A stretch of 64,000 nucleotides of DNA, taken from Methanobacteriota archaeon. Its GTDB lineage: Archaea; Halobacteriota; Methanomicrobia; Methanomicrobiales; Methanoculleaceae. The notes beneath the pieces were generated by a model that saw only the letters and a list, made by a program, of their open reading frames with translations, was not told where the DNA came from and searched no databases. Below are positions 280 through 28,011 of this stretch, one piece after another. The position numbers were made by a program, and so were the translations under genes. Location: assembly GCA_030446015.1 (NCBI GenBank), contig JASUSO010000001.1, positions 1-64,000 of the forward strand, given 5' to 3'. Every line of letters starts with the position of its first letter. Position 1 is the stretch's first letter.

Positions 280-2919
280 TCACCGTCCCCGGCTGATCTC
301 GTCGACGGCCGCGATCAGGAGGTCGATCTCCTGCTCCGTCGTGAAGGCCGCCATGCTCGCCCGCACCGTCCCCTCCGGGAGGCCGAGGTGCTCCATCAGC
401 GGCTGGCAGCAGTGGTGCCCCGAGCGCACCATGATATCCGCATCCTCGTCAAGCATCTGCGCCGCCTCCTGCGGGTGAACGCCGTCGATGGTGAACGAGA
501 CGACCCCGATCCTTGACCCAGGGTCTTTCCCGGCATAGACCGTGACCCCCTCGATCCCGGAGAGCCCCGCGATCAGCCGTGCGGTCAGGCGCTCCTCGTG
601 CCGGTGGATCTTCTCCATCCCGATCGCCGAGAGGTAGTCCACGGCGGCGCCGAGCGCAATCCCGCCGCCGACGTTCGGCGTCCCGGCCTCGTAGCGCTGG
701 TAGCCCTCCGCCGGATCGTAGCCTTCGGTGGTCACGCTCGCGACCATGCCACCGCCGAGAGTCGGCGGCTCGATGAGGAGATCCCGCATCCAGAGCACCC
801 CGGTCCCCATCGGCCCGAACATCTTGTGCCCCGCAAAGCAGAGGAAGTCGCAGCCGAGTTCCGCGACGTTCACCGGCATGTGCGGGAGGGACTGCGCTCC
901 GTCCACCAGGAGGAGGGCGCCGTGCTCCCGGCAGAGCGCCGCGATCTCGCGAACCGGCGGGACGACGCCGAGGACGTTCGAGGCGTGGGTGACGGCGACG
1001 AGCCGGACGCCGCCCCGGGCCAGGGCCGCCTCAAGCGCCGCAAGATCGAGCGCGTAGTTATCGTCGATCCCGATCACGTCGAGCGCGACCCCATGCTTTG
1101 CCAGCATCCGCCAGGGGAGGAGGTTTGAGTGGTGCTCGAGGATGGTAGTCACCACGCGGTCGCCCGGCCTCCAGGAGAGACCCTGAGCGACCATGTTGAT
1201 CGCGTCGGTGGCGTTCTTCGTAAAGACCGTCACCCCTGCCTCGCCGCCGATGAACCGGGCCACCTTCTCGTGGGCGTGCCAGTAGCGCTGCGTCGCGATC
1301 CGGGTCAGCCGGTGGACGCCCCGGCCGACATTCGCCCGGTAATGGTGCTCGAACTCGACGAGCGCCTCCACCACCGGCTCCGGCGAGAAACTCGTCGCCG
1401 CATTGTCGAGATAGACGATATCGCCGAGGATCGGGAAGTCCTTCCTGATCGTCTCGGGGGTGAACTCACTCTCCGCCGGCGGTACCGGCTCGCTGATACC
1501 CGTACTCTTCATGGTCGCCACCTTCTCCACCTTCCTGACCGGGACCTCACGGAGGGTGAAGTCGTCGTTGACGGCGATCCCCCGGTCCCTGCAGACCTCG
1601 CGCATCTTCGGGGGCAGCGCCCGCCACCGCCAGAGCCCCCACCGGTGGTAGACGTCAGGCAACCCGTTCTTCTCCGCCCAGCGGATAAGGAATTCGTCCC
1701 AGCGATCCGTCAACTCCGGGTGCATCTCGCGGAGCCCTTCGTACTCGCTCTCGAGCACCGCCGGGCAGAGGTAGCAGCCCACCCGCTCAAGCCCCATCTC
1801 GTAGAGCGGGTTCATCGGGACCTCGCGCCACCAGAGGTAGAGGAAGACCTCGAGCGCCCGCCAGTTCCGGATCGGCGAGACGTTCAGTTGCAGGGGGTTT
1901 GCCGGGTTCTGGCTCGTCTCGTCGAGGTCGGAACGGTTCCAGGACTCATACCACCGGTTCCCCTGGATGGTGACGCAGGGGCCGAGCCCGGCAAGATAGA
2001 TCTTCAACGGCTGCAGTTTCAGGAGTTTGCAGCACCAGCGGTGATCCTTCCCCGGCGGCCCCGCCTTCTCGACCGCCTGGAAGAAATCGCCGCCTTTCTT
2101 GATTATCTCGACGCCCTGCGACGCCGCGAACGCCACCGTCTCGGGGAGCTCAAGACCGGTGTCGATGAAGAACACCTGCTCCACCCCGGCCTTCCGCGCG
2201 AGATGGAGGACGGCGGTGCTGTCCTTGCCGCCGGAGAACGAGACGTTCACGCACGGCCGGTCGTTCATGTGTTTCTTGATAGTCCGGATGGCGTTGCGTT
2301 CGAGGTTCTTCAAGTGGTAGCGGTTCTTCTCGATGACCTCGTCCCAGCCCGGGTCGGGCCTGGTGCGGGGCTCGACGGGGGCGAGTTCCTTCACCCGGAT
2401 CTGCCCACCCCTGACGATTCCCGTGCCGAACCGGTTCCTGTAGGAGACGATGACCGTCCCGTCCGGCACCGGGGCCGCGAGCGGGAACTGCTTCCCGCCG
2501 ATGCGGCCCTTATGGGCGCTCACCGCAGGCTCGGCCTCCAGGTCGACGATGCCGCGCGTCGCGTGCGGCAGGATGTGCGGGAGGGCTTCGGGAGCGATAT
2601 CGAGGCTAAACCTCCGTTCAATCGGGTCGAACGTGAGCCAGCCGAGCCGGTCGCCGTGGACGATCACGAGGTCCGCCCGGTCGACCCCGCCGGTCTTGTT
2701 CAGGAGCACGACGCGGGGCAACGGGACGTCGCCGAACCGTTCGGTCAGGAGACGCCGGATGAGGGCTATATCCGCCGCGAGGGCGGGCCGGACGTCGTGC
2801 GGCTGCAGGAGCGCTATCTCCCGAACTTGCGCTCCGCAGGAGCAGGTGCGCCCGATGAGGGGGACGTTGCATTGGTCGCACCAGTAGAGGACTTTCTTTA
2901 CTGCCGGTTCGCGCTTCAC
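280..2919 (-). CDS. Fusion: zinc-ribbon / RNA-binding-like region / PAPS-reductase-like (PP-loop) domain + SufS-type cysteine desulfurase
   Basis: 879-aa ORF. N-term CDQC...CSC; PP-loop SGGKDST; WCCKLLK and CYLCP cysteine motifs; then class-V aminotransferase with YLDNAATS, LEHHSN, DGAQ, FAGHKMFGP and SGHHCCQP catalytic loop. Confidence 0.88.
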   Translation of the reverse strand: MKREPAVKKVLYWCDQCNVPLIGRTCSCGAQVREIALLQPHDVRPALAADIALIRRLLTERFGDVPLPRVVLLNKTGGVDRADLVIVHGDRLGWLTFDPIERRFSLDIAPEALPHILPHATRGIVDLEAEPAVSAHKGRIGGKQFPLAAPVPDGTVIVSYRNRFGTGIVRGGQIRVKELAPVEPRTRPDPGWDEVIEKNRYHLKNLERNAIRTIKKHMNDRPCVNVSFSGGKDSTAVLHLARKAGVEQVFFIDTGLELPETVAFAASQGVEIIKKGGDFFQAVEKAGPPGKDHRWCCKLLKLQPLKIYLAGLGPCVTIQGNRWYESWNRSDLDETSQNPANPLQLNVSPIRNWRALEVFLYLWWREVPMNPLYEMGLERVGCYLCPAVLESEYEGLREMHPELTDRWDEFLIRWAEKNGLPDVYHRWGLWRWRALPPKMREVCRDRGIAVNDDFTLREVPVRKVEKVATMKSTGISEPVPPAESEFTPETIRKDFPILGDIVYLDNAATSFSPEPVVEALVEFEHHYRANVGRGVHRLTRIATQRYWHAHEKVARFIGGEAGVTVFTKNATDAINMVAQGLSWRPGDRVVTTILEHHSNLLPWRMLAKHGVALDVIGIDDNYALDLAALEAALARGGVRLVAVTHASNVLGVVPPVREIAALCREHGALLLVDGAQSLPHMPVNVAELGCDFLCFAGHKMFGPMGTGVLWMRDLLIEPPTLGGGMVASVTTEGYDPAEGYQRYEAGTPNVGGGIALGAAVDYLSAIGMEKIHRHEERLTARLIAGLSGIEGVTVYAGKDPGSRIGVVSFTIDGVHPQEAAQMLDEDADIMVRSGHHCCQPLMEHLGLPEGTVRASMAAFTTEQEIDLLIAAVDEISRGR

Positions 2920-2969
2920 TTCAAGAATGATTGGCGGCCGCAGGCATTAAGTGAACCGACGGGATGTCC

Positions 2970-3515
2970 TCACGACCGCCTCAGCATCAGGACGAGAGCG
3001 GTGCCGAGGGCGGCCAGCAGGATAGCCGCAGCCGTGAGGAAGACGGTGTTGACGTACCGCTCCGCCTGCACGCCGGGGTAATCCGGGCCCGGTACGATGA
3101 CGTCGACCGGGGCGCGGGCCACGGCGCCGGAGACCGGGTCAAGGGCGACGAGGAGGAGTCGCCCCTCCGGCAACTCCGCGGAGGGCACTGTCCCGCGGAA
3201 ATGCCGGACGGTATCGCCGGCGGCCGCGGAATCGTCTTCGAAGAGCGTGTAGCCTGCAACGAGCGATCCGGAAGAGACGCTATAGACCAGCAGGTCGACG
3301 CGTTGCGGGGGGCGATAGAAACTCGCATCCCGGCTCCAGGCGGCGGAGACGACAAGGTCTTCGTCCCCGGCGAGGGTGTCGTTTGATAACGAGAGTAGAA
3401 GAGAAGGGAGCGGCGGGGGCGTCGCGCCAAAAACGGGGCAGGGCATGACGAGGAGGGCAGAGAGGGCCGCCAGGAGGAAGAGACCGATCCTGCGCGGCAT
3501 CCCATACGACATCAT
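2970..3515 (-). CDS. Predicted exported/membrane-anchored protein (signal peptide and C-terminal TM helix)
   Basis: N-term MPRRIGLFLLAALSALLVMPCPVFG; C-term TVFLTAAAILLAALGTALVLMLRRS; start moved to the MMSYG methionine. Confidence 0.6.
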   Translation of the reverse strand: MMSYGMPRRIGLFLLAALSALLVMPCPVFGATPPPLPSLLLSLSNDTLAGDEDLVVSAAWSRDASFYRPPQRVDLLVYSVSSGSLVAGYTLFEDDSAAAGDTVRHFRGTVPSAELPEGRLLLVALDPVSGAVARAPVDVIVPGPDYPGVQAERYVNTVFLTAAAILLAALGTALVLMLRRS

Positions 3516-3649
3516 AACCGGGGTATCGGCCCGGCAGGGGATAACCTTTCCCCGCCGGCAGACGGACAACCGCTCTCGCAAGCGGATAGGCGCAACGCTC
3601 CGGTGCGGCGATGCAAAGACTTATTCGTGTAAATGCGAATAATCTAAGT

Positions 3650-3958
3650 ATGGCGTCGCGCTGCGTAAACAACCTGGGTGGAGTGGTGCTCCTCAAGGAC
3701 GTGACACCTGAACAGGTGAACGAGTACGTGCAAAAGCACAGCAAAGAATACTACGAGATGCCCCCGGAGTTCGTCTTCAAGGACATCCGGATGCTCTTGA
3801 AAAAACCCATGCTCGTCGGCCTGAAGCTCCGGAAGAAGAAGATTCTGCTGCCGTTTACGAAGCCCTGCCCCGGTTACGGGACGATGCTCTTCGAGATCGG
3901 GGCAAAGGATGAAGATATCGAGTTCATCCGCAACAACCTTGTGAAAGTCTCGGAGTGA
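3650..3958 (+). CDS. Small conserved protein (possibly DUF1894-like, methanogen-restricted)
   Basis: Clean ~100-aa ORF from MASRCVNNLGGVVLL; family recalled from memory, not searched. Confidence 0.5.
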   Translation: MASRCVNNLGGVVLLKDVTPEQVNEYVQKHSKEYYEMPPEFVFKDIRMLLKKPMLVGLKLRKKKILLPFTKPCPGYGTMLFEIGAKDEDIEFIRNNLVKVSE

Positions 3959-4109
3959 GGCGGGCGGGCCGCTCCCGAAATCGGTCTATGCGCTCACCCG
4001 GCGGCCCCGCACCCTTTCTATCCCTTTTTCGCCGCCTTACCCCGCCCTTTTGGGGCGGCATGACCGATCGATATATAGCCCCTGGCGGGAGAAACTTATA
4101 GCGATCATC

Positions 4110-4739
4110 GTGGGCATTAAGGAGTGGGTAGTCCCTCAGGATAAGGCCTTTTTTGACCTCTTCGACGAGATGGCCAGAACGGTCGTTGCTGCTGCCGATC
4201 TTCTCGTTGATTTCGTCGAAAACTTTGAGGACGTGAAAGAAAAGTGCCGTAAGGTGAAGGAACTCGAACACCAGGGAGACGACATCTCGCACCAGATCTA
4301 CGAGCAACTGAATCGGACGTTCATCACGCCGCTTGAGCCCGAAGAGATCTCCCGCCTCGCCTCGGCGCTCGACGATATTCTCGATTACATCGACGGCACC
4401 GCGCAGCAGATGTACAGTTACGGCATCACCGAGACCGACAACGCGATGATTGAACTTGCAAAACTGATCCAGTTAAGCGTCGTCGAGATCGAGAAGGCCG
4501 TCGTCGGCATACGGTCGCTCAAGGATCCGGCCCTGATCGAGGAGCGGTGCATCGAGGTGAACCGCCTGGAGAACATCGCAGACGGCGTCCTCGCCCATGC
4601 CATCATGGACCTCTTCAAGACGAAGGATGCCATCACCATCATCAAACTCAAGGACATCTACGAGAACCTTGAGATGGCGACCGATAAGTGTGAAGACGTC
4701 GCAAACGTCCTGAGTGACATAGCCATCAGACATACCTGA
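4110..4739 (+). CDS. DUF47/PhoU-like phosphate transport regulator
   Basis: Helical PhoU-like sequence (FFDLFDEMARTVV..., DGTAQQMYSYGI..., YENLEMATDKCEDVANVLSDI), immediately upstream of a PiT transporter. Start could be GTG 4110 or ATG 4050. Confidence 0.85.
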   Translation: MGIKEWVVPQDKAFFDLFDEMARTVVAAADLLVDFVENFEDVKEKCRKVKELEHQGDDISHQIYEQLNRTFITPLEPEEISRLASALDDILDYIDGTAQQMYSYGITETDNAMIELAKLIQLSVVEIEKAVVGIRSLKDPALIEERCIEVNRLENIADGVLAHAIMDLFKTKDAITIIKLKDIYENLEMATDKCEDVANVLSDIAIRHT

Positions 4740-4744
4740 GCACC

Positions 4745-5929
4745 ATGGACCCGATCATCATCCTCGGCATCCTTCTCGCCCTCCTCTTTAACTTTGCAAA
4801 CGGCCTGAACGATGCCGCGAACTCGATCGCCACCATCATCGCGACCAAGGCCTTGACCCCCCTGCAGGCGGTCCTCCTCGCAGGGGTCTTCAACCTCATC
4901 GGCCCCCTCCTCTTCACGACGGCGATTGCGGCAACCATCGGAAGAGGGATCGTCGATCCCTCATATCTTACACCGACGCTGATCCTCGTGGCCATGGTCG
5001 GCGCGGTGCTCTGGATCCTTGTGACCTCTCTTTTCGGGATACCGGTATCAAGCAGCCACGCCCTGATCGGGGGACTCCTCGGTACCGGCATCGCCGCTGC
5101 CGGGACAGGAGCGGTGCTCTGGCCGCCGCTTACGATGATCGAGCAGGTCCTCTTCTACGGGTCCATCGGTGCGGTCCTCGGTGCGGTCATCACGGGTGCA
5201 CTGGCATACTATAAGGGCGACTTCAAGCCCTGGAACCTCCTCCTCGGCGGACTCATCGGGGTAACGGTCATCATTCCGGTCGCCATCGCAACAGGGTTGT
5301 TGAAGATCGGCGGCATCCTCGGGATCCTGATCTTCATCGTCGTCTCTCCTCTGCTCGGGTTCATCTCCGCGTTCGCCCTCAGCACCCTCGTCGTCAACGT
5401 CTTCCGCAACTATCATCCGCGGCGCTTCTCAAGCCTTTTTAGAAACCTCCAGATCTTCTCGGGTTCCTTCCAGGCCATCGGCCACGGGGCCAACGATGCC
5501 CAGAACGCGATGGGCATCATCACCGCCATGCTCCTTGCCGGCGGGCTGATCGCCGAGTTCTCGGTCCCGCTCTGGGTCATACTGGCGTCGTCGCTCGCCA
5601 TGTCGGTCGGGACGTTCTTGGGGGGCTGGCGGGTCATCGACAAGATGGCAAACCGGATCACGAAGATCCGGCCCTACCAGGGGTTTTCGGCATCGGCCAC
5701 TGCCGGCGGCGTCCTCTCGCTGATGACGATCTTCGGTATCTCCGTCTCGACGACCCATGCGACGACCGGCGCGATCATGGGCGTCGGCGCAACCCGCGGC
5801 TACTCGGCGGTCAAGTGGGGGGTCGTCCGCGAGATCGTCGCCGCGTGGGTCCTGACCATCCCGGCGGCGGCGATCGTGGCCGGGCTCTGCTACGTTGTCG
5901 GCCAGGCGGCGTTTGGCGGGATTGTTTGA
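4745..5929 (+). CDS. pit: PiT-family inorganic phosphate transporter
   Basis: NGLNDAANSIATIIATKAL and SFQAIGHGANDAQNAMGII PiT signature repeats; multi-TM. Confidence 0.93.
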   Translation: MDPIIILGILLALLFNFANGLNDAANSIATIIATKALTPLQAVLLAGVFNLIGPLLFTTAIAATIGRGIVDPSYLTPTLILVAMVGAVLWILVTSLFGIPVSSSHALIGGLLGTGIAAAGTGAVLWPPLTMIEQVLFYGSIGAVLGAVITGALAYYKGDFKPWNLLLGGLIGVTVIIPVAIATGLLKIGGILGILIFIVVSPLLGFISAFALSTLVVNVFRNYHPRRFSSLFRNLQIFSGSFQAIGHGANDAQNAMGIITAMLLAGGLIAEFSVPLWVILASSLAMSVGTFLGGWRVIDKMANRITKIRPYQGFSASATAGGVLSLMTIFGISVSTTHATTGAIMGVGATRGYSAVKWGVVREIVAAWVLTIPAAAIVAGLCYVVGQAAFGGIV

Positions 5930-6069
5930 GGGCGGGAGATCCATCTTTTTGGTATAGGACCAGTGGGGTCCGGGTTTGAATCGTTTATACCGGGCGAGAT
6001 GGCCGGCGGATCCGTCGGCTAAGAACCCGTGCGATCGCAAATAAGCACTCTTAATACACTTTCTCGTCA

Positions 6070-6208
6070 TCAAATAGTTATACGGCAGGACGCGGAGCAG
6101 CCGGACAGGACGCCGATTGCCCTGATGAACGGCAAGCAGATGGTGAGTCTCGAGCACGATATCGGGGTGGTGCGGACGAACTACGACCTTGCGGAGGGTG
6201 AAGAATGA
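6070..6208 (+). pseudogene. C-terminal remnant resembling an Mrr-like restriction endonuclease
   Basis: Open frame ending TGA 6206-6208 reads TPIALMNGKQMVSLEHDIGVVRTNYDLAEGEE, similar to the Mrr C-terminal pattern (VLxDGxxLxxLMxxxxVGV). No catalytic domain upstream. Confidence 0.4.
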
Positions 6209-6239
6209 CAGGAGTGGATAACCAGGAGGCAGAGACGGC

Positions 6240-7349
6240 GTGACGGTCCAACCCTACGTCCCGGAGCCGCTGCCCCCGGCCGGCATCGACTGGGAGGCCC
6301 ATATCCCGCAGATAGCGTCGGCGAACCGCGCCCTCGCCCGGTACGACGGCATCCTCCAGGCGATCCCGAACCCGCGGCTCCTCCTCTCCCCGCTCCTGAC
6401 CCAGGAGGCGGTGCTCTCGTCACGGATCGAGGGAACCCAGGCATCGCTCGAAGACGTCCTGCGGTTCGAGGCGAACCCGAAGGAGCCGATCGGCGATGCT
6501 GCTCTCGCCGACATCCGGGAGATCATCAACTACCGGGAGGCGCTGAATACCGCGGTGGAAGCCCTCAAGACCCGGCGGCTGGACATCGCCCTCGTCTGCG
6601 ACCTGCACCGGATCCTTCTCTCCGGCAGCCGGGGCATGGACCGGGAGCCGGGGTGCATCCGGGAGATCCAGAACTTCATCGGGCGGGACGCCCAGATCGA
6701 GCACGCGATCTATGTCCCGCCGGCGCCGGAGGATCTTTCCGGGGCGCTCGGGGACTGGGAGGCATACCTGCAGGGCGGGGAGTTGGACGTTCTCGTCCAG
6801 CTCTCGGTCTTAAAGGCGCAGTTCGAACTCATCCACCCGTTCTGCGACGGCAACGGGCGTATCGGGCGGATGCTCGTCCCCCTCGTCCTCTACGAGAAAG
6901 GGCTGATCGGGAGCCCGATTTTCTATATCAGCGCCTACCTTGAGCGGAACCGGCCGGTCTACTACGAGCGGCTGCTCGGGGTTTCGCGGGACGGGGACTG
7001 GAACGGCTGGATAACGTTCTTCCTCCACGCTATCGAGGAGCAGGCGGGGGCGAACGGCCGGAAAGCAACGGCGATCCTCGACCTTTACGACGAGATGAAG
7101 CAGACGGTGCCGGAGGTGACCCGGTCGCAGTATGCGGTCGCCGCGCTCGATGCGCTCTTTAAGACGCCGGTCTTCAGTTCGGCTGAGTTTTTCGAGCAGG
7201 CGGCGATACCCCGAAGGGCGGCAGAGCGGATCCTCCAGCAGCTCCGTGAACAGGGGATCATCGCCGTCCTTACCGAGGGCGGAGGGCGGCGTGCCGCGAC
7301 CTATGCCTTCCCGCGCCTGCTCGCCATCACCGAGGGGGACCGGTTGTGA
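6240..7349 (+). CDS. Fic family protein (class II, N-terminal inhibitory helix) with C-terminal winged helix
   Basis: HPFCDGNGRIGR matches HxFx(D/E)GNGRxxR; SSRIEGT matches inhibitory (S/T)xxxE(G/N); GTG start. Confidence 0.93.
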   Translation: MTVQPYVPEPLPPAGIDWEAHIPQIASANRALARYDGILQAIPNPRLLLSPLLTQEAVLSSRIEGTQASLEDVLRFEANPKEPIGDAALADIREIINYREALNTAVEALKTRRLDIALVCDLHRILLSGSRGMDREPGCIREIQNFIGRDAQIEHAIYVPPAPEDLSGALGDWEAYLQGGELDVLVQLSVLKAQFELIHPFCDGNGRIGRMLVPLVLYEKGLIGSPIFYISAYLERNRPVYYERLLGVSRDGDWNGWITFFLHAIEEQAGANGRKATAILDLYDEMKQTVPEVTRSQYAVAALDALFKTPVFSSAEFFEQAAIPRRAAERILQQLREQGIIAVLTEGGGRRAATYAFPRLLAITEGDRL

Positions 7350-7440
7350 ATACTCTGGTATCCCCAGGCCGTTTCGTGTAGACCAGAACCCCGATCCGAT
7401 AGACAGAAACCATGCCCCGGAGGTGGTTGTGGGAGACTCG

Positions 7441-7538
7441 TGACCCACACCGGAATTTGTGCGACACCTATGACCCACAAAAAACCTTGTGCGACACGGA
7501 GTGCACTTTTGTGTCGCACAAAACAGGTGGTGCGACAC
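7441..7538. repeat. Short intergenic repeat array with GTGCGACAC boxes
   Basis: GTGCGACAC at 7459-7467, 7489-7497, 7530-7538; inverted GTGTCGCAC at 7511-7519; TGACCCACA at 7441 and 7471 (30-bp period). Confidence 0.75.
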
Positions 7539-7692
7539 CCGTGACGCATAACGATCGGACCCGGCCGGCCGCCGGGCCCCTGGATAGCGGCGCAGGGGTG
7601 GCGCTGATAGAGAGGACCGTGTCGTAGTATAGGCGTAGAGGAGGATGCCAGGCCAGGAAACACCCTTTCCTCTTCCAGATCAGCTATGCCCA

Positions 7693-7878
7693 TCAGTACA
7701 ACTCTTCAAGGTCGTTCTCGGCCAGTTTCAGGATGTATTCTTCAGGAGCATAGAGTTTTGCCATTTTTTTAGGGTGTTTCCTCAGCCTGACGACCACTCG
7801 CTCTACCCCGGGTCTCAGGGGTCGGTCGAGCTGGATTGTCGTGTCGTCGATCAGTCTTCCGTCGACTTCTACCGGCAT
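7693..7878 (-). CDS. Small protein resembling AF2212-like/DUF104-type antitoxins
   Basis: MPVEVDGRLIDDTTIQLDRPLRPGVERVVVRLRKHPKK...; downstream and co-oriented with the methylase gene. Confidence 0.45.
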   Translation of the reverse strand: MPVEVDGRLIDDTTIQLDRPLRPGVERVVVRLRKHPKKMAKLYAPEEYILKLAENDLEELY

Positions 7879-7923
7879 TGCCCCCACTCCATGACATACT
7901 CAGATATTGCGGTTATTGATATC

Positions 7924-10900
7924 TCACACAACCCCCTCCACAACCGCGATCTCCTCCTCCGTGAGCCCGTACAACTCATACACCAGCCTATCGATCTGCC
8001 GGTCGGTCGCGTCGATCATCCCGGCGAGCGCCTCCTTCTCATGCGGGGCCTTCGCCGCCGCGAGGCGCTTGTTCAGGTCGAGCATCTTCTCGACGAGGGC
8101 GACCATGCGGTCGTGGCGGGCGACGTCGGAGGGGTCGGCGGGGTCGATGGGGCGGATTGGCAGGTTTTCCATATACTGCCGCTTCCAGCGGAAGAATCCG
8201 CCCCTGATCTCTGAACTGATGTTGGAAAAAAGGAATGTCCATAATGTTGAATTGAGGATTCCAACCAAATATAGAGAGTTGTTGCCGATGATGTATGAGG
8301 TCGTATCTGAGTAATGACTGTTCTTGTCGATTGTAAATTGTCCTCGTGTCGCGATTTCAGCGTAGATAATCTTCGGCTTCTCAAATTCCTGATAATAGTC
8401 ACAGGCCCTCAGTTCCCACCAATAGTCTCCTTTATCGCACCTCCGTTCACCACTTCCTGCAAATGGCTCAAGGTGCAATGCGATCGCCGGATAGGAGGTT
8501 TTTAGCCAGTCCCATTTGTCGGATACACTCCCTGAGTGCTGGTTAGTCCACCCTTTTTCAAAAAGGATCAAAAATTTCGTGGGGTCTGGAGTAAGATATC
8601 TCTTGATCTCCCGCCCCGCCAGAAACGGCTTGATGATCTCCGCACTCCGCGGGTCTTCGGCGATCAGCCGCTCCCTCGTCGCCTCGTCGATCACGAAAGC
8701 CTCGTTCAGTCCGGTCAGGATACCCCTATAGATCCTCCCGTCCACATACTCCCCCAGGGGCACCCCGGCGGCCCTGATCTTTTCAAGGAGCGCCTGCGTT
8801 CTTCCGTTAGTCAGGGACCACCCCCCATCGTCCAGGGCGGTTTGGTCCACTGGATACGCATGAGCCTTCACGTACTCCGTGAGGTCCGGGTAGTCCAGGT
8901 TCTCCACCTGCACTGCATCGAACCGCTCGCGGGGAGGCCCGGCCCCGATCCGGAGGATACAGGGATAGGTTGTCGCGCTCTCGAAGACCGGGAGATCCCC
9001 GAAATCAACGATCTCCTCGATCCGCTTCTCCTTCAGCCACGCCCGCAGGGGTTTCCCGTAGTTTGCCCGCATCCACTTGTTTGGCAGGATGTAGGTGAAC
9101 ACCCCGCCGGCCGCAAGCAGGTTCACCCCCCGCTCGACAAAATAGACGTACAGGTCGGCGGTGCCCTGGTAGACGCGGTAATGCTCCTTGAAATAGGCCT
9201 TTTGCTCCTTGATGCTCTCCTGGCGCACATACGGCGGGTTTGCGATCACCACATCGAACCCCGGATTCTGGCGCAGGAAGACCTCTGAGAAGTAGAGTTT
9301 CCAGAGGAAGAACGGTTTTGCCCTGTTCTTCCGGTACGCGGCAAGCTTCTTGCAGGCATCGGTATTGCCAGCCTCTTTGAGGGTCTCCTCGATGAGATCC
9401 CACTCCAGCCGCTCGATGGCGGCCCGGTACTCGTTCTTCCTCGCACGGTTCTGCTCGTTGAAGAAGAGCCGCTGATACCGCTTCAGCTCCCGGAGTTTGC
9501 GCCGCGACTCCTTGATGCGCAGGGATGCCGCCTGGTCAAACGTCACCTGCCGTGCGGTGGATCTCGGGCCTGCAAGGGCCTCTTTCTTCTTCTTCTCCAG
9601 CCGCGCAATCTCGCGCCGTATCCGCGCCGAATCTCCCTCCTCCGCTCCCGTGAGAATCCGGTGCAGCTCCTCCCCCAGGTCCTCTATCCTGGCATCGATG
9701 GACGCCGTCAAGGCCTCCGGGCCATCCTCGGGCTCAACCAGCAGCCCCTCATCAAAGAGGCTGACCCCCTCGAACTCGTCCACCAGGCTGTTCCCGCACA
9801 TGATCTTGTGGTCGAGGTTCGGGAGCGGCCGGATCGTCTGGATACTCTCCTCGTCCACGATCAACGAGAGCCAGAACCGGAGTTTGGTGATATCCACCGC
9901 TGACGAGTCGATGTCCACACCATAGAGAGAGTTCTCTATCGTCTGCCGCTTCAACTCGTAGATCGACCGATCTGCCTCCTCCCCGGAAAAGAACGGTGTC
10001 AGGATCGAACGGGCCTTCACGATCTCGTTCATCATCCCGACGGGGAACGCCCCCGAGCCCACCGCCGGATCCGCCACCCGGATCGAACAGAGCAACCGGT
10101 CAAGTTCGGCGTAATGGTTTCGGATGGATTCCGGTAGGGTAAACCGGGCATCCCGGAGCCACTCCTCGGCCTGGCCGCCGGCTTCCTGCGCATGGATGGT
10201 CATCCCGATGGTGACATCGCCACGCCTGATGAATACCTCCAGGTCCTTGCGGGGGATATTTGTGTGGTTCGCAAGATAGTCGATCAGGCTCTGCTGGCAC
10301 ATATAATGCACAATATCGCGCGGAGTGTAGAACGCTCCCTTCGATTTCCGGTCGGTCACATCGAGGAGGTTCTCAAAGACCTTCCCGAGCATCTCCGGGT
10401 CGACCGCCACCTCCCGCTCCAGGGGTTCGTCCTCTTTGATGGTGAAGTTGAACTCGTCAAACGTCTTCAGAATGTCCCCAAAGACCTCATTATCTATCTG
10501 CAGATTGGTGCCGGCCCAGTCGTAGTTCTGGATCGGCTCGAAGAGACCGCCGTTCAGGAACGGGATCTTGCACTTGAACTGGCTGTAGTAGTCCTCGCTG
10601 GGGGAGCGATCCACTGCAAGCGCCTCATAGAAGAGCGGCTCAAGGATATCGTTGAAGAAACTCTCGTAGGGAACAATCTCCCTGTCATACAGGCGGCGCA
10701 TGAAATCCTTCGGCCCCATCCCCCATTCCTGGAACCGCCCGGTCACGGGGTCCTGCCTCACCCCGAGCCACCCCTTCTTCTGGAGGAAATAGAGGAAGAC
10801 GATCTGGCCGAGGAGTTTCTTCGAGAAATCGACCGTCGAGATCTCCTTCTCCTTGAACTCCGCCTTGCAGATCGGATCGGCATCAAGCGCCCTCTCAAGC

Positions 10901-11517
10901 GACTCCTTCAGGTTGAGGTAACAGGCTTTGTACTTCTCGAAGAACTCCTTTGTGACGTTCTCGACGCTGAAACACTCCTCGATATCTGCAAGAGTCGGGG
11001 CTCCATTCGTCTCCTGGATGAGATGGAGGAATCGTTTTCTGCAGGTATGATTCGGCTCGTTCTTCCCCACAAGATACGAGAACCTGCGTGCAGGCGTCAA
11101 CTTCAAACTCGTGCGGATCCTCCCGTCGTCGCCGGTCCCGAGCTCGTACTCGAGCCTGACAAACGAGAAGCGCCAGTCCTCGTGGTCGTCGCCGTAAAAC
11201 GCGACCAGGGCCGCATCCCTCCCTTCGTTGTTGAGGTACTTCGCAATAAAGTTCCGCTGCATCGTCCGGGCGCGGTCACGGGAGGTCGACCGCATCAACC
11301 TGACATAGAGCACCCCGACGGTATGTTTCCCGTCAACGTAGGTCCCGATACTGTATGCCTCATCGATATAGTTCTTGAACTCGCGCCAGATCGGCAACCG
11401 CTGAGGAAATATCTGGAAGTCATCGAAGAGTTCCTGGACGAACCTCATATACCGGCCCGGATTGAAGGCGTTCTTGAAGACCCCATCAATGAGCCTGATG
11501 GTCTCCTCTTCATTCAT
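7924..11517 (-). CDS. Eco57I/PglX-like adenine-specific DNA methyltransferase with C-terminal target-recognition region
   Basis: Motif I ADPAVGSGAFP, motif IV NPPYVRQE, FYTPRDIVHYM; 1197 aa. Start overlaps the upstream helicase stop (ATGA). Confidence 0.88.
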   Translation of the reverse strand: MNEEETIRLIDGVFKNAFNPGRYMRFVQELFDDFQIFPQRLPIWREFKNYIDEAYSIGTYVDGKHTVGVLYVRLMRSTSRDRARTMQRNFIAKYLNNEGRDAALVAFYGDDHEDWRFSFVRLEYELGTGDDGRIRTSLKLTPARRFSYLVGKNEPNHTCRKRFLHLIQETNGAPTLADIEECFSVENVTKEFFEKYKACYLNLKESLERALDADPICKAEFKEKEISTVDFSKKLLGQIVFLYFLQKKGWLGVRQDPVTGRFQEWGMGPKDFMRRLYDREIVPYESFFNDILEPLFYEALAVDRSPSEDYYSQFKCKIPFLNGGLFEPIQNYDWAGTNLQIDNEVFGDILKTFDEFNFTIKEDEPLEREVAVDPEMLGKVFENLLDVTDRKSKGAFYTPRDIVHYMCQQSLIDYLANHTNIPRKDLEVFIRRGDVTIGMTIHAQEAGGQAEEWLRDARFTLPESIRNHYAELDRLLCSIRVADPAVGSGAFPVGMMNEIVKARSILTPFFSGEEADRSIYELKRQTIENSLYGVDIDSSAVDITKLRFWLSLIVDEESIQTIRPLPNLDHKIMCGNSLVDEFEGVSLFDEGLLVEPEDGPEALTASIDARIEDLGEELHRILTGAEEGDSARIRREIARLEKKKKEALAGPRSTARQVTFDQAASLRIKESRRKLRELKRYQRLFFNEQNRARKNEYRAAIERLEWDLIEETLKEAGNTDACKKLAAYRKNRAKPFFLWKLYFSEVFLRQNPGFDVVIANPPYVRQESIKEQKAYFKEHYRVYQGTADLYVYFVERGVNLLAAGGVFTYILPNKWMRANYGKPLRAWLKEKRIEEIVDFGDLPVFESATTYPCILRIGAGPPRERFDAVQVENLDYPDLTEYVKAHAYPVDQTALDDGGWSLTNGRTQALLEKIRAAGVPLGEYVDGRIYRGILTGLNEAFVIDEATRERLIAEDPRSAEIIKPFLAGREIKRYLTPDPTKFLILFEKGWTNQHSGSVSDKWDWLKTSYPAIALHLEPFAGSGERRCDKGDYWWELRACDYYQEFEKPKIIYAEIATRGQFTIDKNSHYSDTTSYIIGNNSLYLVGILNSTLWTFLFSNISSEIRGGFFRWKRQYMENLPIRPIDPADPSDVARHDRMVALVEKMLDLNKRLAAAKAPHEKEALAGMIDATDRQIDRLVYELYGLTEEEIAVVEGVV

Positions 11518-14500
11518 GCAGACTCACCTCCTGCGAAGTATCCGGAGAGGATGACTTCCTTAGGCCCGGAGATATCGACCGGCCCGAACGCCGGGCGGAA
11601 GAACTCCTCCGAGATCTCGGATTTGATCTTCGCAAGCATGGGGAGAGGTTCCGGGGTATACGCAATCTTTTTGAGGATCTTCTTGATGGTCGCCTTCGGG
11701 AGCGCCCCGTCTTCTATCAGTCCGAGAACCTTTCCCACGTACTCTTCGTCTTCATCCGTAAACTCCGGCGAGTGCTGGATCGCCCTGAGTATCCCGGTGA
11801 ATTTGACCTCGCCCCCTTTGCTGGCGCGTGAGGGTGCAATAGTACTCTCGATGGCAAACACATCTTCAAAAGCGGCTTTATTGGACGCAAGCAGCGAGTA
11901 AAAGTCCGATCCGATGGCATGCTTCTTCGTCGATGTCTCCGCCTGGAGAAGCTCCGCCGCACGCAGGAAGTCCACCTCCTCAGTAACAGCCTCCGCCCCT
12001 CTGACAGTCGTCTGAAAGATCTTCCGGAGTTTCCCCCGCCTGAAGAACGTGACCACTGAACGTTCGGATCCGCCGGCTACACGGCCGGTTCTTGCCTTCT
12101 TCGGGAGGTGCTTTATCTTTTTGAAGAGATCGGGATCCGAGTCTCGTATCTCCCGCAGGAACGTCAGATAACCGAGTTCGAGGTCTTCCTCCTCATCCTC
12201 TCCCGTGATTGTCTTTCGGGACGTCAATTTCGTGAAGAGATCGTGCGATTTGATCTCTTCATCCGTCAGGAGAGGAGCATCGTTCCCAAGCATCTCGATA
12301 AACGCTGCTATCTTTGCCTCAGCAGCCTCCTGCAGGCCGATCTCCTCGTTGATAGGCCCTGCTGGGAAGAAATTGAAGATATGGATCCTCTCAAACTTCG
12401 TATCCACACGGTTGATACGGCCGACCCGCTGCATCATCCGTGTCGGGTTCCACGGGATGTCATAGTTGATCACCACGTTGGAGCGATGAAGGTTTACCCC
12501 TTCCGAGAGAACCTCTGTCGTCACGAGAATCCGGTAGTCGTCCTTTGGATGCCGGGATTTCGCATCAAAGTTCTCGATAATTGCGATCCTCTCACTCTCC
12601 GAGGAAGACCCATGATACTCAAGAACACAGTCTCCAAACCGTTCCTTCAGGGCATCCGTAAGATAATCCGCCGTCTCCTTTGCTTCGGTGAAGACGATGC
12701 ACTTCTGGTCTTTGAGCCGGGGATCCGTTGAGAGCGCTTCAACAAACGCGGTGATCTTCGGGTCGTGTTCCACAGTATCCCAGAGTGATCGGAGTTTCTT
12801 GAGGATCGTCAGGTCATACCTGAGATCCTCCAGATACACCGAAGTGAAACTGGATGATGGCAGACAATAGACCTTCTTATCGTCGATAAGAGAGGCGATT
12901 TTGTCCATATTATCCTGTTCAAGGAGGTCGAAGATCGTGTTCGTGTGCATCTTGCTGATATAGACGTTCCCTCTCTCGACCTCCCGGATAAATACTTCAT
13001 AATACCCGATAAACCGGCTGATAGACATCTTAAATGCGAAGAAACTGCTCTCCAGCCTCTTCAAGAGCATTATCTTCATGAACTTCATCATGTTCTTCTG
13101 GGCCAGTTCCTCGGGATGTGAGGTTCCTTCCTTCAGATACAGGAGCGGGGTGTAGCGGGAATACTTGAACCGGTTCGCGATCAGGTCGATCGACTCCAGA
13201 AAGACCGAGTCCGTGTGGTCATCAAAGTGGTAATACACCGGTTGAGGGTCCTCAACCTCGGGGAACTTGAGGTTCTGCCGCTTCAGATCCTCGCTGTAGT
13301 ACGCAGCGATGCTCGCCCGCGTGCGCCGGACCATCAGGTACTGGAGCACATTCTCACGGATATCCTCGGCATTTTCCCTGACAACTCTCATGTACTCTTC
13401 GCGATCCCGCTGCCGGTCCAGCCCGTCAAGCCGTTTCTGGAGGGTATTGAAATATCTCTGAAGGTTGCGCACCTTCGGGTTTGGAAGCGTGGATTTTTTG
13501 GCGTTCTGGAAGAGTTTGATCTGGCTCAGGATATCGTTGGGAGAGTTGTTGAGCGGGGTTGCCGTCACCAGAATCACCCGCTTTCCCCTGCAGATCCGGT
13601 ACAGGCTCTCATAACTCTGCGTCATCTCGTTCCGGAATCGATGAGCCTCGTCGATGATCACGTTCTTGTACCGCTCGGTACCCCTCTTAAGAACGTGATC
13701 CAGTTTCCCAACCGATTCAAAATCTGCCTGGCGCACGCCAAAATCGAGGAAGACATTCGGCCATGAACCTGGATTCTCCCGGTCTATCAGGACAGGAGGA
13801 GCGAGAACGAGCGTCCTCCCATCGAGCTGCTGGGCAAGGAGGGTTGCTATGTACGTCTTCCCGAGGCCGACCACATCGGAGATAAAAACGCCACCGTACT
13901 CCTCCAGTTTTAATTTTGCGTCCTGCACCGCGTCCTTCTGGTACTGCAGGTCCATGAACCCCTCAGGGATGTATTCATTCCCGGTTTCCTGCTTATCGAG
14001 ATTGATCTTCTCCTTCAGGTATTCATAGAGGAATTTCAGGTAGAGTTCGTACGGGGTGATAGAATCGTTGAGCCAGGTCTGCGTCCGTATCGTCTCGACA
14101 TAACTCTCCGACACATCGGCCGAGTTTTCCCAGAGCTCGTTGAACTTGTTGAGCGCGTACTCGTAATCCCCCCGCATCTTGAGTTCGACGTTAAACTCAA
14201 GGTTATCCTGCAGTCCGGCTTGAGAAAAATTGCTTGAGCCAGTGATAACACGCCCCCTGTCCCTGTCACCCTCCTTGAAAGTCATTATGTAGAGTTTTGC
14301 ATGGATCTTCTCTGAAGGGTAAACGCGGATCTCAAGTTTTCCATTCCTCAACCACTCGATGAAGGTCAGAATACCCTTTTCTACGTCGAAGGCGTCTTCG
14401 GATTGATCCAGCTCTTCTTTGACCATGCTGGAGTATTGATTCCTGAGGTCCTTATTGGAAAGGAGGAGTGTTGAATGCCCCTCAAATGCGGCAGTCTGGA

Positions 14501-14711
14501 TAAGATCGTATGTCGTTTTATTGGTGCTGATGCCGATGAGGATTCTGATCTTCTCGGTATTCTCCAGGGCCCTCTCAAGAGCATAGAATCCACTCGAATA
14601 AAAATACCCGACGAGACAATCGAAAAGCGTGGTGTCCTTAACTAAGGCATTAAAACGATCAAGTAACGTATTGCCATTCTCATTAGTGATAAAAGTCAGA
14701 TCTGAAGACAT
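11514..14711 (-). CDS. PLD-nuclease domain + SNF2-type helicase
   Basis: PLD motif IHAKLYIM...GSSNFSQAGLQDN; Walker A DVVGLGKT; DEAH IIDEAHRFRNE; VTATPLNN; helicase C MMQRVGRINR. Confidence 0.9.
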   Translation of the reverse strand: MSSDLTFITNENGNTLLDRFNALVKDTTLFDCLVGYFYSSGFYALERALENTEKIRILIGISTNKTTYDLIQTAAFEGHSTLLLSNKDLRNQYSSMVKEELDQSEDAFDVEKGILTFIEWLRNGKLEIRVYPSEKIHAKLYIMTFKEGDRDRGRVITGSSNFSQAGLQDNLEFNVELKMRGDYEYALNKFNELWENSADVSESYVETIRTQTWLNDSITPYELYLKFLYEYLKEKINLDKQETGNEYIPEGFMDLQYQKDAVQDAKLKLEEYGGVFISDVVGLGKTYIATLLAQQLDGRTLVLAPPVLIDRENPGSWPNVFLDFGVRQADFESVGKLDHVLKRGTERYKNVIIDEAHRFRNEMTQSYESLYRICRGKRVILVTATPLNNSPNDILSQIKLFQNAKKSTLPNPKVRNLQRYFNTLQKRLDGLDRQRDREEYMRVVRENAEDIRENVLQYLMVRRTRASIAAYYSEDLKRQNLKFPEVEDPQPVYYHFDDHTDSVFLESIDLIANRFKYSRYTPLLYLKEGTSHPEELAQKNMMKFMKIMLLKRLESSFFAFKMSISRFIGYYEVFIREVERGNVYISKMHTNTIFDLLEQDNMDKIASLIDDKKVYCLPSSSFTSVYLEDLRYDLTILKKLRSLWDTVEHDPKITAFVEALSTDPRLKDQKCIVFTEAKETADYLTDALKERFGDCVLEYHGSSSESERIAIIENFDAKSRHPKDDYRILVTTEVLSEGVNLHRSNVVINYDIPWNPTRMMQRVGRINRVDTKFERIHIFNFFPAGPINEEIGLQEAAEAKIAAFIEMLGNDAPLLTDEEIKSHDLFTKLTSRKTITGEDEEEDLELGYLTFLREIRDSDPDLFKKIKHLPKKARTGRVAGGSERSVVTFFRRGKLRKIFQTTVRGAEAVTEEVDFLRAAELLQAETSTKKHAIGSDFYSLLASNKAAFEDVFAIESTIAPSRASKGGEVKFTGILRAIQHSPEFTDEDEEYVGKVLGLIEDGALPKATIKKILKKIAYTPEPLPMLAKIKSEISEEFFRPAFGPVDISGPKEVILSGYFAGGESA

Positions 14712-24522: not shown

Positions 24523-27500
24523 ATGGCATTCTTTGACAGGTTCCGGACGAACATCGACGGGTTACGGCAGGCGAAGGACTATCCTGGCCTGGTTGCGGTC
24601 CTGGAGAGCGACGACCCCCGGAGCCGTGCCGATGCAGCGCGGGCGCTCGCTGCCCTCGGGGTTCCCGCCATCCCGGAGATCCTCAAGGCGCTCGAACAGG
24701 CCCGCCCGGCGTCGCGAGACCGGATGGTCGAATCCCTCGTATCAGTCGGCGCACCATCGATCCCGCTGCTTCTTGCCCTGATCCTCCGGGCCGGCCCCGG
24801 TCTGCAGGCATCCATCTCCCGCACCATCGCGGAGGCGGAGAACTCGATGGCCGAGATGCTGATGCCCGCCCTACACCACGACCAGCCGGCAATACGGCGT
24901 GCCACGGTGATCGCCCTGCAAGGGATGGGCAGGAAGGCAATCCCACCCCTCACGAAAGCGCTCCATGACGGCAACCCCTCGGTGCGAAGAGAGGCCGCAA
25001 ACGTGCTTGCCTCGATGAAATGGTCGCCCGAGAACGTCCAGGAGAAGGTGCATTTTTACTGCCTCCGGGAAGACTGGAAGGAACTCGCCAAACTCCAGGG
25101 GGCCGCCGTCCCGGCCCTCCTCAAGGCCCTGGCGAGCACCGACCCCCAAATGCGGAGCGAGTCGGCGCGAACCCTCGGGAAGATCCGCGATCCCCGGGCA
25201 GTCCCGCAGCTCATCAAAGCGGTGAAAGACCCCCGACCGGACGTCCGTATCCGTGCCGTCGAGGCGCTCGGGGAGATCGGGGACGACCGGGCGAAACCCC
25301 CGCTAGTCGATGTCCTGAACGATCCCCACCACCAGGTGCGGATGGAAGCGGCATGGGCCCTCGGCAAACTGGGATGGGTGCCGCAGAGCGACCTGCAGAA
25401 GGCAGAATACCTGATTGCAAGCGAACAGTGGAACGAACTGGTCAGGATGGGAAGAACGGCCATCCCACCGCTCATCCGGGCGCTGGGGATCGGCTACTCG
25501 GGCGTTCGCACCGGCGCGAGCGAAGCGTTGCGGCAACTGGGGCAGCCTGCACTCAACGCCCTGAGTATGGAAGCCTCGTCGAAAGACCCCGCACGAAAAC
25601 AGCGGGCCCTGGCCGCCCTCGAGTACATTCGGCAGCGCCAGGAGGAACTGTCCCGGACAAAGCCCGCACAGGAAGACTCCAGGTACAAAAAGGAACTCGA
25701 AGAAGGGCTTGCCACCCAGAAGAGGTTCGAGGAGCAGTTCGGGCGCCCGAACTACGCCGCTCTGGACAAGCGGATCAAGAGACCTTCGCCGCCTGCGCAG
25801 GATGAGACGCAACAGGAGCCCAAACAGCCCATAGAACAGACGCCAGAAGAGCCTGAGGCGGCCGTGAACCTCAGCGACCTCATCCGGGAGAGCCGGAAGG
25901 CGGAGGCGGCGTGGGCACGGGTCAAGGCGCGCTGGAAGGCCGATCTCCAGGCGGCTCCCGAGAATACGATCTCGCTGGACCAGCTCATCCCGATTGAGTT
26001 CGAGCAGGAGATCGCCGAGGCCGAAGAGGAGGACCTGTTCACCTACCGGCCCGAGGAGGGGGACCGGGAGCCGCAGGAACTGGAGATCCCACAGATCCCG
26101 AGGGAGACGGTTGAACCGCCAGAACCCCCCGAGCCGAGCCCTGAAAAGACGCCGCTCGAAAAGTGCCTTGAAGCGCTCAGGAGCAGCGACGCCAGCATCC
26201 GGGCTGCGGCGGTCGCCGCGCTCCAGAGCATGGGGAAGGAGGCGGTCGGATACCTCATCGAAACACTCTCCGACCCCCACTACAGCGTCCGCATCGCCGC
26301 CGCGGAGGCGCTCGGCGAGATCGGGGATCCGGACGGCGTCGAGGCGCTGGTCCAGGCGCTCGGCGACGCGAGAGAAGACGTCCGGATCGCCGTCATCTCG
26401 GCGCTCGGCCGTATCGGCGACCGCCGGGCCGTCAAACCACTCATTCGCCTCTTCCGCGACAGGTACCACGGCGTCCGGGTCGCCGCGGCGGACGCCGTCG
26501 CGGAGTTCGGCCGTGGCGCACTCAAGGAACTCGAAGAGGCACTGAACGACCCCTTACCGGTCGTCCGGGTGACCGCGGCGAAAGCGATAGGGCTCATCGG
26601 CGCAACCGAGTCGATCGCTGTCCTCGTCACGCATCTCGGGGATACCGCGCCGGACGTCCGGTGGAGCGTTGCCCGGGCCCTGAGCACCTTCGGCGCCATG
26701 GCGGTCGATCCGCTCTTCCTTGTGCTGAGAACAGGCAATAAGGAGGTGAGGCTTGCAGCGATCGATGCTCTCTGGGAGATTCCGGAGAAGGGTGCAGCCG
26801 ACGTTCTGCGCTACGCTCTCGACGATGAAGACGAGGAAGTGAGGACAAGGGCCGCGGCCGCCCTCAGGAAACGGCAGGTGATCGACGTATGGCGGAGGAC
26901 GCTCGGCAGCCAGGTCGAGGAAGAGGAACGCGCCCCGAAGAAGACGAGGAAGGTCCGGGTGGAGGATAAGACGGCGTTCGAGCAGTCGGGCCGGCAGGAT
27001 ATCGACACCCTGATCGGCGCGCTCAAGGACAGGGACTGGAACACGCAGCTCGGTGCCGCTACACGTCTCATCATGATGGGGCGCCCCGCCGTGGACGGCC
27101 TCATCCGTGCGCTCAAGGACGAAGACCCGGATATCCAGTCGGCCGCGGCCAGTATCCTCGGTGACATGCGCGAGACCGCGGTCACGCCGCTCATGGAGGC
27201 CCTGAGCGACAGCGACCGGTTCGTCAGGCTCGTTGCCGCCCGCAACCTGGGCCGGATCGGGAACAAACGGGCTATCGAAGCCCTGATCGGCTCACTGCAC
27301 CAGGAGCCCGACCCCGAGGTCCGGGCGACCGTGGCGGAGGCGCTCGGGTACATGGGGAGCAAAGAGGCGATCGAGCCGCTGGCCCTGGCGCTGCGGGACA
27401 GGGATGAGGACGTCAAGATCGCCGCAGCACGGTCGCTCGGCTACATCGGCGGCCTGAGTGCCATCGAACCGCTGGTCCTGGCGCTCCACGACGTGGACGA

Positions 27501-28011
27501 CCGGGTCAGGTACGCCGCACTCGAGGCCCTGAAGACCCCCGACGAGACGATGCGCCGCCACCTGATCGCCGCTCTCCGGACAGGGGACGAGACGTTCCGG
27601 GCGGGGGTCGCCGAGGCGCTGGAAGCGAGCGGCTGGAGACCGGAGACCGGCGAAGAACGGACGCTCTACCTCATGGCGCAGGGGAGGTGGGCCGAGGTGG
27701 AATGGGTCGGCGCCGACGCGCTGCCGGTGCTTGCGGAAGCGCTCTCCGATCAGCTGATCGAGGTCCGGGCGAACGCCGTCCGGGCGATCGACCGGATCGG
27801 GGGAGAGGGCGCTGTCGCCCCGCTCATCCAGGCACTCAGGGACGATGCGCTTGCGGTCAGAAAACGTGCCGAATGGGCCCTGATCCAGATGGGCGAGGCG
27901 GTGCTTCCGGCGCTCGACCAGGCGCTCAGCAAGGCGGCGCAGCCGGAGGCCCGGGAGGGGCTGCAGCGGATCATTGAGGAGATCCGCAGAAAAGAGACGG
28001 GAAGGATCTAG
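24523..28011 (+). CDS. Large HEAT-repeat (PBS-lyase-like) protein
   Basis: 1162 aa; many ~31-aa repeats of type DPxxxVRxAAAxALGxIGDxxAVxPLIxAL. Confidence 0.92.
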   Translation: MAFFDRFRTNIDGLRQAKDYPGLVAVLESDDPRSRADAARALAALGVPAIPEILKALEQARPASRDRMVESLVSVGAPSIPLLLALILRAGPGLQASISRTIAEAENSMAEMLMPALHHDQPAIRRATVIALQGMGRKAIPPLTKALHDGNPSVRREAANVLASMKWSPENVQEKVHFYCLREDWKELAKLQGAAVPALLKALASTDPQMRSESARTLGKIRDPRAVPQLIKAVKDPRPDVRIRAVEALGEIGDDRAKPPLVDVLNDPHHQVRMEAAWALGKLGWVPQSDLQKAEYLIASEQWNELVRMGRTAIPPLIRALGIGYSGVRTGASEALRQLGQPALNALSMEASSKDPARKQRALAALEYIRQRQEELSRTKPAQEDSRYKKELEEGLATQKRFEEQFGRPNYAALDKRIKRPSPPAQDETQQEPKQPIEQTPEEPEAAVNLSDLIRESRKAEAAWARVKARWKADLQAAPENTISLDQLIPIEFEQEIAEAEEEDLFTYRPEEGDREPQELEIPQIPRETVEPPEPPEPSPEKTPLEKCLEALRSSDASIRAAAVAALQSMGKEAVGYLIETLSDPHYSVRIAAAEALGEIGDPDGVEALVQALGDAREDVRIAVISALGRIGDRRAVKPLIRLFRDRYHGVRVAAADAVAEFGRGALKELEEALNDPLPVVRVTAAKAIGLIGATESIAVLVTHLGDTAPDVRWSVARALSTFGAMAVDPLFLVLRTGNKEVRLAAIDALWEIPEKGAADVLRYALDDEDEEVRTRAAAALRKRQVIDVWRRTLGSQVEEEERAPKKTRKVRVEDKTAFEQSGRQDIDTLIGALKDRDWNTQLGAATRLIMMGRPAVDGLIRALKDEDPDIQSAAASILGDMRETAVTPLMEALSDSDRFVRLVAARNLGRIGNKRAIEALIGSLHQEPDPEVRATVAEALGYMGSKEAIEPLALALRDRDEDVKIAAARSLGYIGGLSAIEPLVLALHDVDDRVRYAALEALKTPDETMRRHLIAALRTGDETFRAGVAEALEASGWRPETGEERTLYLMAQGRWAEVEWVGADALPVLAEALSDQLIEVRANAVRAIDRIGGEGAVAPLIQALRDDALAVRKRAEWALIQMGEAVLPALDQALSKAAQPEAREGLQRIIEEIRRKETGRI

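Follow-up and report, generated by a model that had tools for sequence, protein, structure and literature searches.

Why does a protein that is annotated as a PAPS reductase carry a complete cysteine desulfurase in the same polypeptide chain? This question is raised by a minus-strand gene (positions 280-2919) in the stretch of DNA analysed here, 64,000 nucleotides from an archaeon of the Methanoculleaceae, which we call the window. The answer bears on more than one gene. The name “PAPS reductase” is probably wrong for an entire archaeal family, and in Methanomicrobiales the fused desulfurase identifies the sulfur donor, which indicates sulfur transfer and thereby makes the function testable.

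Domain architecture of the fused protein

The open reading frame starts with a GTG codon and encodes 879 amino acids. A Zn-ribbon, a PP-loop domain and a complete desulfurase had been recognized in it in an earlier note made from the sequence, and this description was confirmed by the reading frame, by Pfam searches and by conservation. Pfam and NCBIfam matches, together with an alignment of 61 intact full-length fused proteins, delimit Zn-ribbon, PUA-derived, PP-loop and SufS parts, all on the minus strand. The Zn-ribbon spans residues 10-36 (positions 2812-2892), and its four cysteines, arranged as C14-x2-C17...C26-x-C28, are conserved without exception in the 61 fused proteins and throughout the other branches of the family. 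It is followed by an alpha/beta plus PUA-derived small beta domain (residues 42-182, positions 2374-2796; pLDDT of 91 in an AF2 model), which was assigned by Foldseek and by alignment with the Pfam PUA domain of a paralogue.

The PP-loop (PAPS_reduct) domain occupies residues 189-450 (positions 1570-2355). Pfam matches it at residues 225-387 with an E value of 2.9e-34, and a profile search leads to CysD and to APS and PAPS reductases. Its SGGKDS PP-motif (residues 229-234, positions 2218-2235) is invariant, as are two cysteine pairs that are shared by fused and unfused relatives: C296-C297 (positions 2029-2034) and C382-x2-C385 (positions 1765-1776). These pairs, which do not figure in the earlier note, form a CC-x84-CxxC motif in all 61 fused proteins, the four-cysteine motif of [4Fe-4S] APS reductases. 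C443 was also considered as a second catalytic cysteine; it is present in 57 of the 61 fused proteins but not in unfused relatives, and thus is not essential.

A variable and probably disordered linker (residues 451-487, positions 1459-1569) joins the two halves and measures 23 to 130 residues among homologues. A structure prediction based on 49 homologues gave a mean pLDDT of 85 for the fused protein, with a single disordered stretch at residues 462-485 (pLDDT below 50). The SufS-type desulfurase domain makes up residues 488-879 (positions 283-1458), with an Aminotran_5 match at residues 502-868 (E value of 3.3e-119) and a Foldseek match to the Thermococcus cysteine desulfurase 5b87 (TM score of 0.93 for the target). 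The PLP-binding lysine K699 (positions 823-825), H597 and the persulfide cysteine C837 (positions 409-411) within RSGHHCCQP are intact in 61/61 proteins. Among all models, SufS (TIGR01979) scores best at residues 490-876, with 410.4 bits against a cut-off of 475. The domain thus resembles SufS in its fold, PLP lysine and short RSGHHC loop, but differs in being fused, in falling below the subfamily cut-off and in belonging to an order where SufE was reported in 0/32 genomes (PMC8351635). Therefore, SufS needs another acceptor in Methanomicrobiales.

The N-terminal half belongs to the archaeal PRK13795 family (NCBIfam NF010366-NF010369), as indicated by alignment and by a tree; this placement is likewise absent from the earlier note. 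The Zn-ribbon, the PP-loop and the four Fe-S cysteines are common to both, and residues 7-474 align to positions 34-532 of the 667 in the PRK13795 model with 390.7 bits, which does not reach the cut-off of 745. In Methanosarcinales, relatives of this family have a C-terminal 2x[4Fe-4S] ferredoxin domain, at the place that SufS takes in the fused protein. Paper searches with the family identifiers yielded a single mention, which concerned MJ0973. A phage family annotated as PAPS reductase (phrog_424) matches the PP-loop half (window positions 1570-2919, E value of 1.2e-43), and some phages may carry relatives.

Distribution and origin of the fusion

A scan of GTDB genomes located 78 loci, nearly all of them in Methanomicrobiales, with representatives in Methanoculleus, Methanoregula, Methanospirillum, Methanogenium, Methanolinea, Methanocalculus and Methanocorpusculum. 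About 79 of 120 Methanomicrobiales genomes carry the fusion (some copies are cut by contig ends), and another 32 encode the PP-loop protein without a fused SufS, including one with both parts on separate contigs. Only 9 have neither, such that one form or the other is near-universal in the order (111/120). The earlier note had named, as an observation that would speak against its proposal, halves split into unrelated operons in all relatives; the halves are not split in this way, and the fusion is order-wide. A 2024 survey of archaeal fusions and fissions lists a “CysH-SufS” protein (cluster 536), which by its description is the same protein; it was reported to be exclusive to Methanomicrobiales and mostly fused, and was filed under assimilatory sulfate reduction (PMC11237513). 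Beyond that survey, the present analysis argues against sulfate assimilation, resolves the domains of the protein, and describes the replacement of ferredoxin by SufS, evidence for an origin in one fusion and the frequent proximity to fdhD and thiM.

Two old paralogues, A and B, were distinguished in a survey of the phylum. Both end in the ferredoxin domain in Methanosarcinales; in Methanomicrobiales, B has lost this domain and A occurs both unfused and as a SufS fusion. The copy of B in the window's own genome (L137, positions 3998-5413) consists of a Zn-ribbon, a true PUA domain and a PP-loop domain, with neither ferredoxin nor SufS. Fusions and some unfused members together form clade A1 (support of 97), apart from an unfused clade A2, and the SufS halves form one clade (support of 98) to which the order's stand-alone SufS proteins do not belong. 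These trees are consistent with one fusion followed by losses, so that the pairing has been kept across an order. At one locus (L141, genome G029) the two genes are separate but adjacent, and both are nested within the fused clade in the two trees; a fission is the best explanation of this arrangement. Fused genes with one in-frame stop codon were found in four genomes (G017, G113, G116 and G014), where they could represent fission, a pseudogene or a sequencing error.

Sulfate reduction and DNA phosphorothioation as alternatives

An assimilatory APS/PAPS reductase with a fused desulfurase, which is what the annotation implies, would account for the PAPS_reduct match and for CC/CxxC cysteines of the APS-reductase type. 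However, such an enzyme lacks a substrate supply, because ATP sulfurylase (PF01747) was found in 0/120 Methanomicrobiales genomes, APS kinase (PF01583) in 4/120 and CysN in 3/120. The PF01747 and PF01583 searches were positive in bacterial control genomes, and thus they work. For CysN, only hits above the cut-off were counted; a looser threshold mostly caught frames of about 425 amino acids, in archaeal controls as well, which are presumably EF-1A. PF01747 and PF01583 also had no match in M. jannaschii and M. acetivorans, both of which carry a PRK13795-family protein.

The catalytic cysteine of assimilatory reductases is held in a C-terminal ECGxH motif. When the C-terminal cysteines of the PP-loop half were compared with CysH, as had been proposed earlier, this tail (ECGLH) proved to be missing: it occurs in 0/61 fused proteins and 0/53 family proteins. 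Furthermore, the CysH model PRK02090 scores 58.5 bits against a cut-off of 154, and it is not evident what a cysteine desulfurase would do in sulfate reduction. Activity does speak for this alternative to some extent. APS/PAPS reductase activity has been reported for two M. jannaschii proteins, according to a passage in PMC10322725 (refs 44 and 45 there), and APS reduction with low Vmax and kcat has been described for the relative MJ0973 (PMC3448663). The PAPS reductase of M. thermolithotrophicus was rejected as an equivalent; it is FAD-dependent and belongs to another protein family (PMC10322725).

Judged by sequence, the PAPS-reductase reading fails: the PP-loop half has the four cysteines of APS reductases without their catalytic tail, and we regard a reductase function as very unlikely. 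The missing sulfate activation and catalytic tail, the Zn-ribbon and PUA-derived domains and the ferredoxin-bearing relatives likewise argue against the sulfate-assimilation filing in PMC11237513. The earlier note had left the choice between a thiolation enzyme and an assimilatory sulfur enzyme, as opposed to a classical PAPS reductase. With no sulfate activation and no CysH tail, thiolation is the better option, whereas the nucleic acid substrate that was also suggested is something we infer only.

Thiolation of DNA was considered as well, in the form of a DndA-DndC-like or BREX type 4-like phosphorothioation enzyme in one chain. The BrxP and SspD profiles match the PP-loop domain with 130 and 42.6 bits, respectively, DndA and SspA profiles match the SufS half, and a ferredoxin-type region is present both in BrxP (PMC12839542) and in the Methanosarcinales relatives. 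However, the likeness to DndC that had been pointed out before is weak, amounting to 22.5 bits on the PP-motif only (residues 217-241). No Dnd, Ssp or BREX-like partner is evident among the most widely shared neighbour families, and the near-universal presence in the order is unlike that of defence genes. DNA phosphorothioation is thus highly improbable. A type IIG restriction-methyltransferase gene, followed by a PLD + SNF2 helicase gene with DISARM/PbeA-like matches, is found at window positions 7924-14711. A defence role was rejected, since the type IIG restriction genes, which are 5 kb away, are not among the conserved neighbours.

Probable sulfur transfer and its possible substrates

We propose that the fused protein is probably a PP-loop sulfur transferase fed by SufS. 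Whether it acts on RNA is close to an even question: in this version, it would be an enzyme that transfers sulfur at the expense of ATP, draws on a persulfide donor of its own and most likely serves as a tRNA thiolase. The SufS half would take sulfur from cysteine as a persulfide on C837, and the flexible linker would allow this sulfur to be carried to the PP-loop half. There, the substrate would be adenylated with ATP and sulfur inserted via a putative [4Fe-4S] site formed by C296, C297, C382 and C385. The Zn-ribbon and the PUA-derived domain would dock the substrate, which is most likely an RNA base and probably belongs to a tRNA. Dedicated pairs of this kind are known from B. subtilis, where NifZ-ThiI and YrvO-MnmA each consist of a cysteine desulfurase that feeds one PP-loop tRNA thiolase with no extra carriers (PMC5372739). 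Those pairs are separate proteins with PP-loops of other families, whereas here a single chain is involved.

The RNA version draws on the paralogue in the same genome, in which a Zn-ribbon and a true PUA domain (Pfam E value of 9.5e-17) accompany the PP-loop, and on the basic N-terminal domain (net charge of +7, median of +8), as opposed to an acidic SufS half (-17). The N-terminal domain of the fused protein aligns with the Pfam PUA domain of paralogue B, to which it appears homologous in position, but the PUA motif is shortened and the region seems degenerate in the fused branch. None of 49 fused-protein N-domains has a PUA hit in Pfam; the best Foldseek matches are archaeal PUA proteins but are not significant (E values of 0.07-0.7), and a profile of the domain against the PDB gave chance matches only (lipid-binding proteins, E value of 0.14 and worse). 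The RNA-binding-like N terminus that the earlier note saw in the fused protein thus lacks a profile match there; in paralogue B, PUA is clear.

Other observations count against an RNA substrate. Sulfur in methanococcal tRNA does not come from cysteine, with sulfide reported as the donor (PMC5372739); MJ0973 was reported to reduce APS, as described above; and the fused gene most often has fdhD or thiM as a neighbour, not a tRNA gene. In addition, the PP-loop domain is closer in sequence to CysH/CysD than to TtuA, for which the profile search gave an E value of only 0.006. The [4Fe-4S] tRNA thiolases TtcA and TtuA resemble the fused protein in combining a PP-loop with Fe-S cysteines but represent another PP-loop subfamily, and the fused protein has four conserved cluster cysteines, not three.

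As for the product, M. maripaludis tRNA contains s2C17 and s2U33, and no enzyme is named for either in the portion of the report drawn on here (PMC7668247); by analogy, these nucleosides are candidates only. The product is unlikely to be 4-thiouridine because ThiI is encoded separately (in 96/100 genomes), and the fusion is not its replacement. The most specific form of the proposal, a new family of cysteine-fed, single-chain RNA thiolases whose product is one of the archaeal thionucleosides with no known enzyme (s2C17 or s2U33, for example) and in which the ferredoxin module was swapped for a cysteine desulfurase in this order, is a long shot. Sulfur transfer by the fused protein would give methanogens a cysteine-dependent sulfur route, as opposed to the use of sulfide for methanococcal tRNA (PMC5372739).

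A serious rival, though one that we rate as unlikely, is that the protein delivers sulfur to cofactors. The SufS half would then supply either FdhD, which sulfurates the Mo/W cofactor of formate dehydrogenase, or the synthesis of thiazole and thiamine; the acceptor activated by the PP-loop half would be a small molecule or a protein. Among 58 fused loci with at least 700 bp on both sides, the fused gene adjoins fdhD in 32 (in several orientations and families, mostly convergent), thiM in 16 and nadA in 4. Stand-alone sufS genes adjoin fdhD in 18/20 loci. No fdhD was found within 1.3 kb of relatives without a fused SufS, with flanks present in at least 17 unfused A, 11 Methanosarcinales A and 8 B loci; therefore, fdhD follows the SufS domain. 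It may be either a second client of SufS sulfur or a relic of the donor gene. The relic option detracts from this rival, since the mostly convergent link does not differ from the one in the stand-alone sufS-fdhD pair. Moreover, cofactor delivery leaves the Zn-ribbon/PUA-derived/PP-loop half unexplained, and this half also occurs with neither SufS nor fdhD.

In the window's own genome, fdhD lies at the start of contig C11 and points to the contig end, like the fused gene on contig C6. The starts of both contigs align to one stretch of another locus (L011), and thus the pair is very probably convergent here as well. Elsewhere in this genome (L176, positions 2215-5053), a stand-alone sufS overlaps fdhD beside a PP-loop gene that is LarE-like by its sequence. 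In Methanosarcinales, a flavoprotein gene pair (Fer4_20/Pyr_redox_2 and DHODB-FeS) is located directly upstream of the ferredoxin-bearing A relative (L118, positions 5782-8006; also L121). This NfnAB/SudAB-like pair could supply electrons, which would suit a ferredoxin-fed relative.

The window contains several other genes of interest. These encode a Fic-domain protein with a strong SoFic match (positions 6240-7349), a 1162-amino-acid protein made up mostly of HEAT repeats (positions 24523-28011; 11 HEAT_2 stretches) and a radical SAM protein with an HMPTM N-terminal zinc ribbon and a weak viperin-like match (positions 46370-47839).
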